Below are positions 3,410 to 62,857 of a DNA stretch of 64,000 nt, in pieces (the first letter of the stretch is position 1; each line of letters starts with the position of its first letter). The notes under the pieces are model-generated. The model was given only the letters and a program-made list of their open reading frames with translations. It was not told where the DNA came from and did no database searches. Made by a program: the position numbers and the translations under genes. Where the stretch lies: the NCBI RefSeq assembly GCF_002775205.1, contig NC_036454.1:12420882-12484881 (forward strand), written 5' to 3'. Origin of the DNA: Xiphophorus maculatus. Lineage: Eukaryota > Chordata > Actinopteri > Cyprinodontiformes > Poeciliidae.

Positions 3410-6300
3410 TTTCTTAGGTCTTTTTTGTTTGTTTGTACAGGCTGACAAGAAAAGCCTGTAAAAAGTTTGATCAAATTTTAAAACAATAATAATCTTATGA
3501 TTTAACAACTGCTTATTTTGCAGACATTTGCAATTTCTCATTTATTTGTCCAGAACTAAAACAACATTTATCCCATGAGAATTGCAAAGAGGAAACAAAT
3601 CTCAAGGTTAAATAAACACCACTAACTCTACTCCCCATCACTATTGTAAATGTTTAACACACAGCAATAAAAGGATTACAATTTCATTGTGACAGAAAAG
3701 TTCTGCTCAGTGAAATATAACTATCATAAACAATTAAGTGAAACTTTTGTCACTGATAAATTGATACAGAATAATATGAAGAAAATTCCTTAACCTAATG
3801 TGCCATTTTCTGTTTTACATGGTTCTCTAAAAAGAGTGATTTTTAGAGAACCATAACAGAACAGAAGCAGAACAATCAACAAGAAGCAGGACAATCTGTT
3901 TAATATAATGGTTTAACATAAAAAACAAATCTCCCTTGCAGGACAGGCAGGTTGTTATTCAAACAGTCCAAACTTTTGACTATAAAAGGAGAAGAGATTT
4001 AAATCTTCTTTGCGTGCAGTTCAGAAAATGAAATAGAAGACTTTATCTATACTGATGCTTTATCTATACCTTGAGATAAGTATTTACAGTCTTCCTCATT
4101 TAAAAAGGGAACAGAAAGAGGATAAGGGGAAATAATGGTCTACATCACATGAGAGTGCATCACTGGGGAAACCCAGTGACTTTCTGAGTCACATTCCAGC
4201 ATTCATGTCTGAACCTGTTTTGGTACAGACAAGAGGCTCAGGTAAACGTCCAGGTGTTTGTGAGGAACGACCCACCGAGTTAGCAACACATTTGGAAAAG
4301 CACTTCCAGTTTGGCAAGGTTCGGTTATTCCCCTGTCTTTGTTGCAGAAAGATCACAGCAGCAAAATTCAAACCGAGTTGAAAACCTCTCTCATCCCCTC
4401 TCACTTTGCCATCACTTTTATTGTAAAAGTAGCACAATAAATTACCATGCCTCACAAAAGTTTTCCTACGTTTTGAACATTTCTGCACTCTGTCATGGTA
4501 CAGCAATAAATTTTGATGCATTTTACTGCACAAGGTGATGTATAATTGGGATGTGAAGAAAACACTGTACATGGTTTTCAGAATATTTCACACTTAGATG
4601 TGAGAAGAGTGTTGCATTAATATGTCTTGTACACTCAACAGCCCTGCCCTCCCCATTCCCAAATCAATACTTCACCTCTCACTTGCTGTTGCAGCTACAG
4701 CTGCAAATCTTGAGTTAGTAATTCTAAAGAGTTGGTCGATTCTCTATTCTACTTTGGTATTGACTTTGAGTGGCCCATTTTAAATGGTAAATGTCGTACA
4801 TTTGTACAGCACTTCATCAAGTCTGAGGACAGATGGAGCAATCATTCAAACCAGCATCCCATCAGTTATAAGTCTAATCCAACCTACTGAGTTAACACTT
4901 TTATCGTAGAGTTAGATATTTAATCTACAGTAAAGGATTCCTTTGTAAGTCTGGTTGTTGTCTTGCTGGAAGGTGAACCTCCATCCCAGGTCCATCCCAG
5001 ACTTTTGTTGCATCTGTACCTCCTCCAGAGTTAGAATTGGGCCACTTCATTGCTTCCTTGATTAATGCTCTCTTTACTCGGCCAGTCATTTTAGGTGGGC
5101 ACCATGCCATGGTGGGTCTGCAATTGTGTCGCACTCTTTCCATTTTCTTGAAAAGTAATTTGTTATAAGATAAGATAAATCTTTATTGTCATTGTCACAA
5201 CAACAATAAAATGTAATAGGTTGTTTTATTAGCTGTGTTGAGCTTCATCTCAACTCTGTCCTTGACCTGTCTGATGGGTTCAACACTATATGACATCCCA
5301 ACATACGGTTGAGATTTTTCTTTGAAGGCTTCACTTCTGTACCCAATTGTGACCAGCAGATGGCGACAGTACTCACACACATAAAGCTTTCTAATTTTGA
5401 GTCTGGTTTGACAAAAGAATGAAAGCAAAAAAAAAAAAAAAAAAAGAAAGAAACCCCATGCCACTTTTTTAAAAATCTTTTGCAGTGAAGCTAAACTCGT
5501 CATAATGTTGAGATAACACGACTCAACCTATTTTTTACGACTGAAACTTATAAACCGAAGATTATGGTTAAGAACAGCCAAGGCCAGTATGAACAGAATG
5601 ACAGCGTTGTGACAACGAGGCAGTGTGTTTGGAAAATAAACCTCTTGACTCTTGGCCAGTGGAGCGTTTCGTGGAGTCACACCCTCTCTTTTAATCTCCA
5701 CAAATTTCCTTAACAGCAGATAATTGAGTTCAGACATTATTTTATCTAGTTTTGTCAGCTTACCAGCTGAATGTAAAACAGGTTGACATTTGTATCAGGT
5801 TACATCGGAAGGTGTATTGATGAGAACTTTACTTTACAAATAAAAGTTAAATATACTAAAACTTTGGCATTCCTGCTTACATTTGATTCATGTGTGCTTT
5901 TGATTTTCAGTTCAGAAAAAGTGCAACTCCAGAAAATATTAATTCTGAGAATTAAGCAAACTACCGGTAATCTTAAACCCAACAAGGAAGCCTCCTAAAC
6001 TGAAGCAAACAAAAGGTATTCTCAGTGAGTCTAACAAACTGTTTTGTTTACTTTTTAAGACAAAATGGTAATATTGCATAATTCTACCTGAACAACACAC
6101 CTTTATTATATTACTAAGCAAGTACGTATATAAAGTAACTACATCACACTTCTTAAATAAGAATATATATATTTTTATTTCCAACAATGCAGTTCAGTCT
6201 ATAACAGACTGTGACAGATGAGAAAAAAGAGAAGAAATAAGAAATGTAAGAAAATAGCAAGTTCAGTAAAGCAAACTCAGTTTTGTTGAATGCATCTTAG
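3410..6300. other. Intergenic region between mpeg1 and histone H1
   Basis: No gene was recognised. It holds a perfect 14-bp hairpin (3820-3853) and a probable dispersed fish repeat fragment (about 4785-4890). A stretch near 5165-5215 resembles the 3' tails of fish LINE/SINE copies (AAATCTTTATTGTCATTGTC), and there is an 18-base poly-A run near 5429. The scattered short reading frames have no recognisable domain. Confidence 0.5.
3820..3853. repeat. Perfect 14-bp inverted repeat (hairpin)
   Basis: TGGTTCTCTAAAAA (3820-3833) and its exact reverse complement (3840-3853) flank a 6-nt loop. Flanking bases (TTCTGTT on the left, AACAGAA on the right) extend the symmetry imperfectly. Confidence 0.9.
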
Positions 6301-6352
6301 TCCACACCGAGTGAAAGCTCAGAAGAAGAGCCTTTTGGTTCCATGGGAGCCC

Positions 6353-62300: not shown

Positions 62301-62857
62301 CTTGCAGAGGGAAGGCTCTATCCTCCTCTTTCCAACATCAGAGAAGTTTCTCTTCAGATTGCTGTCAAGGTAAATCCTGGAACAATACTCGTTTGTCACT
62401 TGCTAAATCATTATTAGTTGATGTTTCGACTGCTGGTAATTCCGTTTATAAAGTCATTTAATTTAGTCAAATATTTCAGATGTAATAGAGGCTTATTTTG
62501 TCCTGATAGAATCTGAATTCTATCAGTTTCTAATAATTCCTGATCATTTGTCTTGTCTGAAGAAACTAGATATAACTTTGTAAATAAAAAATTATGCTTT
62601 GAATGTCAAACTGAACATAACTAAATGTGGTGATATCAAAGTTTTAAAAACGTCTCCAGCACTGCATGTCTCCCTGATGTGTTTCTTCTTCATTGCAGGT
62701 GATGGAGTTCGTCTATGCCAAAGGCATGGCGTTCCGTTACCCTGAACCTCTAGACAAGAACGGCTTTGTGCGTGCCACTGCGTGGAACACAGACTACGAC
62801 TCCTTACTGCCAGATACTTATGATTGGCCAGGTGTTAGCTTCAGTCCTATCAAATAG
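53323..62857 (+). CDS. me2: NAD-dependent malic enzyme, mitochondrial (ME2)
   Basis: Fourteen coding exons, all joins in frame: 53323-53436, 58734-58867, 58957-59106, 59306-59381, 59622-59783, 59897-60110, 60305-60402, 60579-60692, 60776-60887, 61070-61212, 61403-61505, 61699-61769, 62271-62369 and 62699-62857, encoding 582 aa (human ME2 584). The basic N-terminus beginning [14 protein letters not shown] is a mitochondrial presequence. Recognisable sites are YTPTVGLA with catalytic Tyr114, [17 protein letters not shown] with the catalytic lysine, the metal-binding [10 protein letters not shown] and [10 protein letters not shown], and the dinucleotide-fold GAGEAALG. Glu61, Arg69 and Arg93 match the fumarate-activation site residues of human ME2 (Glu59, Arg67, Arg91). 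A Gln in NQEVF probably corresponds to the NAD-preferring Gln362. The enzyme converts malate to pyruvate and CO2 in the mitochondrial matrix. Sequence and position beside mapk4 favour ME2 over ME1 or ME3. Confidence 0.96.
54105..54950. mobile_element. Degenerate DNA transposon with SWIM-type protein fragment
   Basis: The ends carry related inverted sequences: CACCTATTGTAC on the left and GTGCAATAGATG on the right. Inner blocks GTCTCACAAACACACGC and TTTGTGAGACTTGCGGCCAC are also inverted. The minus strand (54820-54528) encodes a 97-codon first exon from MASSTSTDS to a YCSCKAG end, followed by a donor GTAAGT. CxC in this setting is the first half of a SWIM zinc finger. Similar proteins in fish occur with YqaJ-type nuclease domains in transposons. 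The partner CxH exon was not found, so this looks like an internally deleted copy. The exact family is uncertain. It lies in me2 intron 2. Confidence 0.45.
55389..55416. repeat. Perfect 12-bp hairpin
   Basis: ATTCATTACTCA pairs perfectly with 55405-55416 around ATTG. Confidence 0.9.
56120..56164. repeat. (TA)n microsatellite
   Basis: About 22 TA dinucleotides in me2 intron 2. Confidence 0.95.
57666..57918. repeat. Two perfect hairpins
   Basis: AATGTCAGCACA (57666-57677) pairs with 57684-57695. GTTCCAATAA (57894-57903) pairs with 57909-57918. Confidence 0.9.
57985..58215 (+). repeat. Degenerate TTAGGGTTGGAA-type minisatellite
   Basis: About 230 bp of G-rich units of roughly 18 bp, such as GGTTGGAAGGAAGG and TTAGGGTTGGAA, with many substitutions. 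Both strands read through in some frames (plus: LGL-rich; minus: NPN-rich), which reflects the period and not a gene. It lies in me2 intron 2. Confidence 0.85.
61280..61341. repeat. Two abutting perfect hairpins
   Basis: GAACTGTTGTAGTT (61280-61293) pairs with 61301-61314. CACATGGTTTAC (61314-61325) pairs with 61330-61341. They share one base. They lie in the me2 intron between 61212 and 61403. Confidence 0.95.
61934..61980 (+). pseudogene. me2: Decayed duplicate of an me2 exon (pseudo-exon)
   Basis: After a good acceptor (CTCTCTCTAG) the sequence reads [17 protein letters not shown]. This parallels the true exon at 62271, which reads [14 protein letters not shown]. The TAA at 61943-61945 replaces the Glu codon. 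Similarity appears to fade after the AAGGCT block. Inclusion would stop the protein early, so it is either dead or a poison exon. Confidence 0.75.
62503..62526. repeat. Perfect 10-bp hairpin
   Basis: CTGATAGAAT pairs perfectly with 62517-62526 around CTGA. It is in the last me2 intron. Confidence 0.88.

Follow-up and report, generated by a model that had tools for sequence, protein, structure and literature searches.

Chained and abutting perfect hairpins in a 64-kb stretch of the Xiphophorus maculatus genome: candidate scars of fold-back DNA synthesis

Short inverted copies of neighbouring sequence have been described in several systems, whose accounts are drawn on here in part. Template switching is known to produce perfect hairpins (PMC8794818), and 4017 such events have been reported from great apes, of which 1503 are gold-standard, with a median copied length of 12; the commonest types of event yield single inverted repeats, and many events are compatible with intra-strand switching (PMC7954356). 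Similar products accompany the repair of DNA breaks. Human polymerase theta can extend a stem-loop that has two terminal pairs, in Drosophila the most favourable loop is reported to be one of 6 nt (PMC11292364), and inverted templated insertions of nearby sequence measure 3-30 bp in mammalian cells (PMC11292364, PMC7407515). Yeast break repair leaves fold-back inverted insertions mostly of about 5-34 bp with joins at 0-5 bp of microhomology; these events depend on Pol delta, proceed with one end folded and are captured by NHEJ or alternative end joining (PMC11724301). In C. elegans, snap-back is termed a minor part of such insertions (PMC5068794). Finally, a survey of perfect inverted repeats (arms of at least 10, spacers of at most 8, dinucleotide controls) gives means of 4.55 per kb for metazoans and 1.91 for Eukaryota overall, with zero spacers predominating in eukaryotes; its main text never uses the term "template switch" (PMC13155455).

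In the window, which is the whole 64-kb stretch of X. maculatus DNA analysed here, perfect inverted repeats whose loops do not exceed 10 nt number 27 at a minimum arm length of 10 bp, 16 at 11, 14 at 12 and 7 at 15. Simple-sequence and overlapping cases were taken out before counting, which removed the (TA)n tracts at 19940 and 56121 and, owing to overlap with its neighbours, hairpin 18904. The principal loci, together with four decayed stems, are listed below without strand.

3819..3854, isolated perfect hairpin, arms 15, loop 6 (window scan; genome match only to its own place)
11936..11985, decayed hairpin, stem 21, 2 mismatches, loop 8 (imperfect-stem scan)
13556..14023, long inverted duplication, arms 13556-13714 and 13903-14023, loop 188 nt (alignment)
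14028..14079, perfect hairpin, arms 23, loop 6 (window scan)
17888..17924, decayed hairpin, stem 15, 1 mismatch, loop 7 (imperfect-stem scan)
18881..18977, six fold-back copies in a chain (hairpin scan and copy reconstruction)
23103..23151, two chained hairpins, arms 10 loop 6 and arms 14 loop 5, with one arm in common (hairpin scan)
31792..31820, isolated perfect hairpin, arms 12, loop 5 (window scan)
32842..32875, decayed hairpin, stem 15, 1 mismatch, loop 4 (imperfect-stem scan)
37109..37145, decayed hairpin, stem 15, 1 mismatch, loop 7 (imperfect-stem scan)
49571..49644, abutting unrelated hairpin pair, arms 18 loop 3 and arms 15 loop 6, overlap 1 bp (scan; genome match only to its own place)
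51703..51733, perfect hairpin, arms 12, loop 7 (window scan)
51779..51825, abutting unrelated hairpin pair, arms 10 loop 4 and arms 9 loop 7, overlap 2 bp (scan)
52574..52610, isolated perfect hairpin, arms 15, loop 7 (window scan)
55389..55416, isolated perfect hairpin, arms 12, loop 4 (window scan)
57666..57695, isolated perfect hairpin, arms 12, loop 6 (window scan)
61279..61341, abutting unrelated hairpin pair, arms 15 loop 7 and arms 12 loop 4, overlap 2 bp (scan; genome match only to its own place)

All 13 hairpins with arms of at least 12 named in the original prediction were recovered, nine at the exact base and four shifted by 1-2 bases. The nine cases that it gave as having 10-11 bp arms exist as well, but the one placed at 18882 is really 18881-18908, with arms of 12 and a loop of 4; further hairpins lie at 18913, 22799, 23103, 28017, 33880 and 63966. 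For arms of at least 10, 11, 12 and 15, respectively, 60 controls of each kind gave means of 1.33, 0.38, 0.08 and 0.02 under a global dinucleotide shuffle, 1.43, 0.28, 0.10 and 0 under a 1-kb block shuffle, and 1.55, 0.52, 0.17 and 0 under an order-4 Markov model; no control under any model held more than one hairpin with arms of at least 12. The claim of an excess beyond chance and AT-richness, for which shuffled controls had been named as the check, is thereby upheld, both against the dinucleotide shuffle (27 and 14 observed against 1.3 and 0.08, for arms of at least 10 and 12) and across the three models (14 against 0.08-0.17).

The original prediction regarded this excess as window-wide; it is present in the window but extends genome-wide, judging from a 270-kb sample of the same 704-Mb genome (334 kb with the window), composed of 20 stretches placed by hand at round coordinates on C1-C20, five random stretches and two flanking the window. 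The sample contains 41 hairpins with arms of at least 10 and 22 with arms of at least 12, at an inverted-repeat density of 4.41 bp/kb (arms of at least 10, spacers of at most 8). This density is close to the metazoan mean of 4.55 published under the same definition and dinucleotide controls, and an excess of hairpins is in itself nothing unusual in an animal genome; the survey differs from the sample in that zero spacers are commonest and the mean for Eukaryota is 1.91 (PMC13155455). Counted as loci, hairpins with arms of at least 12 occur at 12 places in the 64-kb window and at 20 in the 270-kb sample, a 2.5-fold higher density in the window (p 0.013, unadjusted for window choice); the ratio is 2.5 (p 0.001) for arms of at least 10 and 1.9 (p 0.06) for arms of at least 11, and a bootstrap over sample bins gives smaller p values, from 0.00002 to 0.004. 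Since the window was chosen for its hairpins, these ratios are not put forward as a local hotspot.

It is the anatomy that stands out and not the excess: hairpins touch, form chains and abut. Across the 334 kb, 18 of the 45 hairpins with arms of at least 11 have a touching or overlapping partner (arm of at least 8), against 0.9 expected from shuffled flanks and 1.5 from random real positions; they occupy 11 loci, four in the window and seven in the sample, and no such partner adjoins the other 27. At four junctions in the window a hairpin meets an unrelated one, the overlap being 1, 2, 2 and 4 bp; both inner arms come to 17-32 bp. With arms of at least 9, touching unrelated pairs make up five rows at four loci, every one in the window, and none was found in the 270-kb sample; four shuffles of the 334 kb yielded no pair at offsets of -5 to +2, and about 0.11 would be expected given the 30 window hairpins with an arm of at least 9. 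By our own estimate, blunt joins overlap by at least 1 bp by chance with a frequency of about 0.44, so that four overlapping junctions out of four lend weak support to microhomology. The most elaborate chain comprises four rounds on the left side (18881-18939) and two on the right (18936-18977), meeting at the junction TACA; between 18897 and 18957, fold-back copies, six in all and from both sides, account for 57 of 61 bases. Longer-range copies were also sought: 18 of 90 hairpin edges have a match of at least 10 nt within 300 bp, against 3.5 expected, and the best of these are mostly the chained hairpins again. The arms of the long duplication at 13556..14023 differ by three substitutions and gaps of 35 bp and 3 bp, and 4 bp separate its end from hairpin 14028.

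Loops of hairpins with arms of at least 11 (n=43, loops 0-10) measure 0-2 nt in four cases, 3-9 nt in 37 and 10 nt in two, with a mode of 6 (10 cases). Among loops of 0-9 nt, those of 0-2 nt are scarce (4 of 41; p 0.002 against a flat spread), a rarity that tells no more than that a strand folded back on itself. Stems of at least 14 include 17 that are perfect, 10 with one mismatch and two with two, a ratio near the expectation for steady production and decay; the 24 stem mismatches include three G-T and six A-C. Stems grade in this way from perfect to imperfect, as would be expected of hairpins that are continually born and decay.

On balance, the hairpins are probably scars left by fold-back (snap-back) DNA synthesis, and the likeliest site of that synthesis is the end of a double-strand break. 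There, a resected 3' end would pair with itself by a few bases, leaving a loop of about 3-9 nt; a polymerase would then use that strand as its own template for about 10-25 nt, after which the lengthened end would be let go. The released end may refold, generating chains, and would be joined via 1-4 bp of microhomology to the other end, possibly folded too, so that the product would have the form A-loop-A' fused to B-loop-B'. Polymerase theta would be the most likely enzyme, with others capable, and the scars appear to be neutral and to erode by substitution. Two marks of snap-back synthesis are present, namely inverted copies of adjacent sequence behind a short loop (27 window hairpins, loop mode 6) and repeated copying rounds (18 of 45 hairpins in chains or abutting pairs, with 0.9 expected; six copies at 18881-18977). 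The excess, the loop spectrum, the chaining, the abutting junctions and the single copy at three loci are observed, and the break origin, the enzyme and one event per chain are inferred from them only tentatively; chains could also represent several events at one hotspot, as an existing hairpin favours more fold-backs.

The polymerase-theta and SD-MMEJ snap-back products resemble the fish hairpins in being inverted nearby copies with loops near 6 nt, and their short-microhomology joins may have a counterpart here (PMC11292364, PMC7407515). They come mostly from induced breaks with a known start sequence, whereas the fish copies are genome-fixed and read without the starting sequence, and the fish hairpins lie on both sides of four junctions, unlike those insertions. 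The local fold-back inversions at yeast HO breaks are alike in their inverted insertions, mostly of about 5-34 bp, and perhaps in their joins with 0-5 bp of microhomology; they differ in having a 41-nt loop, flanked by imperfect 10-bp repeats of a single end, whereas most loops here measure 3-9 nt and folding may involve both ends (PMC11724301). The great-ape template switches share perfect inverted repeats and copied lengths near 12 nt; they were detected as events against relatives, and the part of that account drawn on describes no chained or abutting pairs (PMC7954356). Rates per substitution are not comparable between the apes and the fish. No description of abutting hairpin pairs was recognised in the portions of the literature searched, which is not a claim that none exists.

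The original prediction inferred a copying process and preferred replication template switching; the former stands, and the latter is not established as that process. In a short-range four-point switch, a polymerase at the fork briefly back-copies the nascent or sister strand and then returns, leaving one inverted repeat per event. This explanation is possible, though less likely: it is a known maker of perfect hairpins (PMC8794818; PMC7954356), suits the 27 hairpins among the 45 that no other touches as well as break ends do, and in its intra-strand form at a fork would also explain the few loops below 3 nt (PMC7954356). Break ends and intra-strand switching at a fork, which the great-ape data allow, cannot be told apart by loop size (PMC7954356). 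However, with one back-copied segment per event, the abutting pairs and the six-copy chain require several switches, on both sides, and exceed one event unless several struck one place; isolated hairpins are compatible with a single event. Break-end copying is favoured because unrelated hairpins abut with 1-4 bp overlaps and chains run through many rounds, and both-ended fold-back with microhomology joining fits better than a single replication template switch. The sample has no abutting unrelated pair with arms of 9 or more; every such pair comes from the window, which was selected on account of its hairpins, so this kind is not shown to be general. More tentatively, abutting unrelated perfect hairpins may be a fossil of two-ended snap-back repair of a germline break, countable in one genome with no need of a relative, with the window as a local hotspot.

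Derivation from transposable-element families (terminal or subterminal repeats, MITEs or fold-back elements) is very unlikely. A dispersed repeat at about 13453-13580 does lie near hairpin 14028, and the window holds other interspersed repeats. Yet a genome query with 13400-14200, in which 40 of 788 candidates were scored, gave 44 matches, 40 to that dispersed repeat and four to the locus itself, so that beyond the repeat the duplication at 13556-14023 matched itself alone among those scored. Genome queries around 3819, 49571/49609 and 61279/61314 each found a match at the queried locus alone and no second copy, an absence that is not proof of rarity. None of the 14 matches between the window and a 200-kb sample falls on a listed hairpin, a result that rules out families of several thousand copies but no smaller ones. 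The view that a process and not one repeat family is at work accordingly holds, given arms unrelated by eye, three loci lacking a second copy and stems ranging from perfect to imperfect. Opening of hairpin ends at transposon excision, in the manner of P nucleotides, should yield loopless palindromes, and was set aside on that ground.

Retention by selection as RNA or DNA structures, such as microRNA precursors or protein sites, is highly improbable. Primate microRNA loci have arisen from template-switch hairpins (PMC8794818), but here the stems and loops are short, the arms are unrelated and imperfect stems are about as frequent as decay predicts (24 mismatches, three G-T and six A-C); Rfam models gave no match in the window at gathering score, which also counts against a structured-RNA reading. 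On the statement that no hairpin lies in a coding exon, a Pfam scan of 10 of the longest open frames covered nine of the 12 loci with arms of at least 12 or abutting pairs, loci 3819, 49571 and 55389 and the other shorter hairpins lying outside it. Its sole above-cut-off match, to malic enzyme at 61388-61507, is downstream of the hairpins at 61279-61341, and that pair lies about 60 bp upstream of a putative acceptor site for a malic-enzyme exon; the frame at 23114-23344 gave two sub-cut-off matches, TRM13 (0.004) and TraV (0.009). Chance or AT-rich composition alone can practically be dismissed, since the null models yield 1.3-1.6 hairpins with arms of at least 10 per window but only 0.08-0.17 with arms of at least 12 against 14 observed, and all three rule it out.

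If the paired and chained forms are scars of two-ended break repair, any one assembly could be scanned to gauge germline fold-back end joining. The predicted pre-break sequence, in which the left arm and loop would be directly joined to the second loop and right arm, could be checked in relatives. New hairpins also provide raw material for small-RNA genes.

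The window lies at 12420882-12484881 of contig C12, in a genome of 704 Mb in 101 contigs. Encoded in it are a MACPF-domain gene, a linker histone gene, a protein kinase exon and a malic-enzyme stretch; these genes and the genome size suggest a teleost-like animal. It was rescanned for hairpins (perfect inverted repeats with short loops, named by the start of the left arm), with shuffled and Markov sequences as controls and a comparison sample of 27 further 10-kb stretches of this genome; loops, neighbours, decay and copy number were studied after counting. The window contains 27 hairpins with arms of at least 10 bp and loops of up to 10 nt, against a mean of 1.33 in 60 dinucleotide shuffles (never above 5). 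At least thirteen with arms of at least 12 bp, far above chance, had been claimed in the original prediction, and this is borne out by a count of 14 against 0.08 (never above 1), with coordinates correct to within two bases. The comparison with shuffles and other genomic DNA that was proposed as its check finds an excess in the sample as well, where 270 kb contain 41 hairpins with arms of at least 10 bp and 22 with arms of at least 12 bp (15 of the latter in the first 200 kb, versus 0.33 in shuffles). The excess is genome-wide and ordinary, a general and already known property of animal genomes. Under the published definition, inverted repeats cover 4.41 bases per kb of sample and 12.6 per kb of window; PMC13155455 reports densities of 4.55 for Metazoa and 1.91 for Eukaryota as a whole, in a unit printed as "IR per kB" and given in its methods as bases per kB. 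Loci with arms of at least 12 bp are 2.5-fold denser in the window than in the sample (p 0.013), and those with arms of at least 11 bp 1.9-fold (p 0.06), both values unadjusted for the choice of window.

Among 45 hairpins with arms of at least 11 bp in the 334 kb of window and sample, whose loops were filtered only for a length of up to 10 nt, 18 touch or overlap a further inverted repeat with an arm of at least 8 bp, a count that may include both partners of one pair; flank shuffling predicts 0.9 and random real positions 1.5. These 18 fall at 11 loci, four in the window and seven in the sample. In chains, an arm of the previous hairpin is reused by the next one:

23103/23119, window, chained hairpins
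L025, sample stretch, chained hairpins
L028, sample stretch, chained hairpins
L013 485/503, sample stretch, chained hairpins
L007, sample stretch, chained hairpins

In abutting pairs, the arms of the two partners are unrelated, and the hairpin density of the window predicts about 0.11 pairs of this kind:

49571/49609, window, overlap of 1 bp
51779/51801, window, overlap of 2 bp
61279/61314, window, overlap of 2 bp
18913/18936, window, overlap of 4 bp

Touching unrelated pairs with arms of at least 9 bp all lie within the window, and none occurs in the 270-kb sample. Lowering the arm length to 8 bp brings in L003 (offset +1) and a single row from the L028 cluster in the sample, and 49609/49647 (offset +2) in the window. 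To the extent of the sampling, chaining is thus a general trait of the genome, but clean abutting pairs so far characterise this window.

Exact fold-back copying accounts for 57 of the 61 bases at 18897-18957, with four rounds from the left and two from the right that join at a 4-bp overlap, TACA; the other four bases, ACAG, extend a small palindrome. The perfect 23-bp hairpin at 14028 begins 4 bp past an inverted duplication (arms of 159 and 121 bp, loop of 188 nt, three substitutions, two gaps), whose start falls inside a dispersed repeat at 13453-13580 with 40 scored copies elsewhere among 788 candidates, 77-95% identical. The pair at 61279-61341 lies about 60 bp upstream of a candidate splice acceptor of the malic-enzyme exon, an AG at 61401-61402 located by eye, and could affect the branch point of that exon.

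A decay scan of stems of 14 or more with loops up to 12, the score threshold of which disfavours calling mismatched stems, yields 31 against 0.33 in shuffles: 17 are perfect, 10 have one mismatch, 2 have two, and one each has four and six. This spectrum could result from hairpins that arise steadily and decay neutrally, and no sign of upkeep appears in it. The sample holds a long decayed hairpin at L024:1261-1351 (stem 41, six mismatches, loop 9). Genome queries at 3819, 61279/61314 and 49571/49609 each matched their own place only. Among other repeats of the window, 29088-29315 and 34175-34402 are related elements that carry internal inverted repeats: each matches itself, the other one and the sample in both orientations. 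A purine-rich tandem repeat occupies 58028-58161 (period 60, 24-bp sub-unit) in a stretch with a GC skew of 0.20, and 6962-9073, adjoining the linker histone gene, consists of diverged repeated blocks that are 64-67% identical, with one 40-bp piece at 87.5%.

The 43 hairpins in 334 kb with arms of at least 11 bp and loops of 0-10 nt comprise 4 with loops of 0-2 nt, 37 with 3-9 nt and 2 with 10 nt, the commonest being 6 nt (10 cases); loops of 11-60 nt add 36 inverted repeats versus about 6 in shuffles. Loops shorter than 3 nt are scarce (4 of 41 among loops of 0-9 nt, p 0.002 against a flat spread), which is a requirement of strand self-folding and does not separate a break from a fork. Spacers of human short inverted repeats, whose arms are mostly 6 bp in the data of PMC12562434, are counted there as nearly even from 4 to 8 nt with a slight peak at 6.

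The best reading is that the ends of DNA breaks would undergo fold-back synthesis, generating hairpins, and would then be joined via microhomology, with polymerase theta as the likely enzyme. Human polymerase theta is described as extending stem-loops from two terminal pairs, a 6-nt loop is favoured in Drosophila, and a fish polymerase theta structure contains a stem-loop; polymerases eta and lambda are likewise described as capable of related reactions (PMC11292364). Outside support for break-end fold-back comes from SD-MMEJ (PMC7407515) and from theta-driven indels in Caenorhabditis elegans, including natural isolates (PMC4490562). Against this reading, snap-back is said to contribute little to the insertions seen in worms (PMC5068794). 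Fold-back insertions are also known in yeast, where the enzyme, unlike the one proposed here, is Pol delta (PMC11724301). Replication template switching, the origin preferred in the original prediction, stays one of two live options: great-ape template switches account well for single hairpins, and many are compatible with intra-strand switching (PMC7954356). Isolated hairpins may have arisen by either break-end fold-back or template switching. The part that deserves follow-up is the end-to-end pairing of unrelated hairpins.
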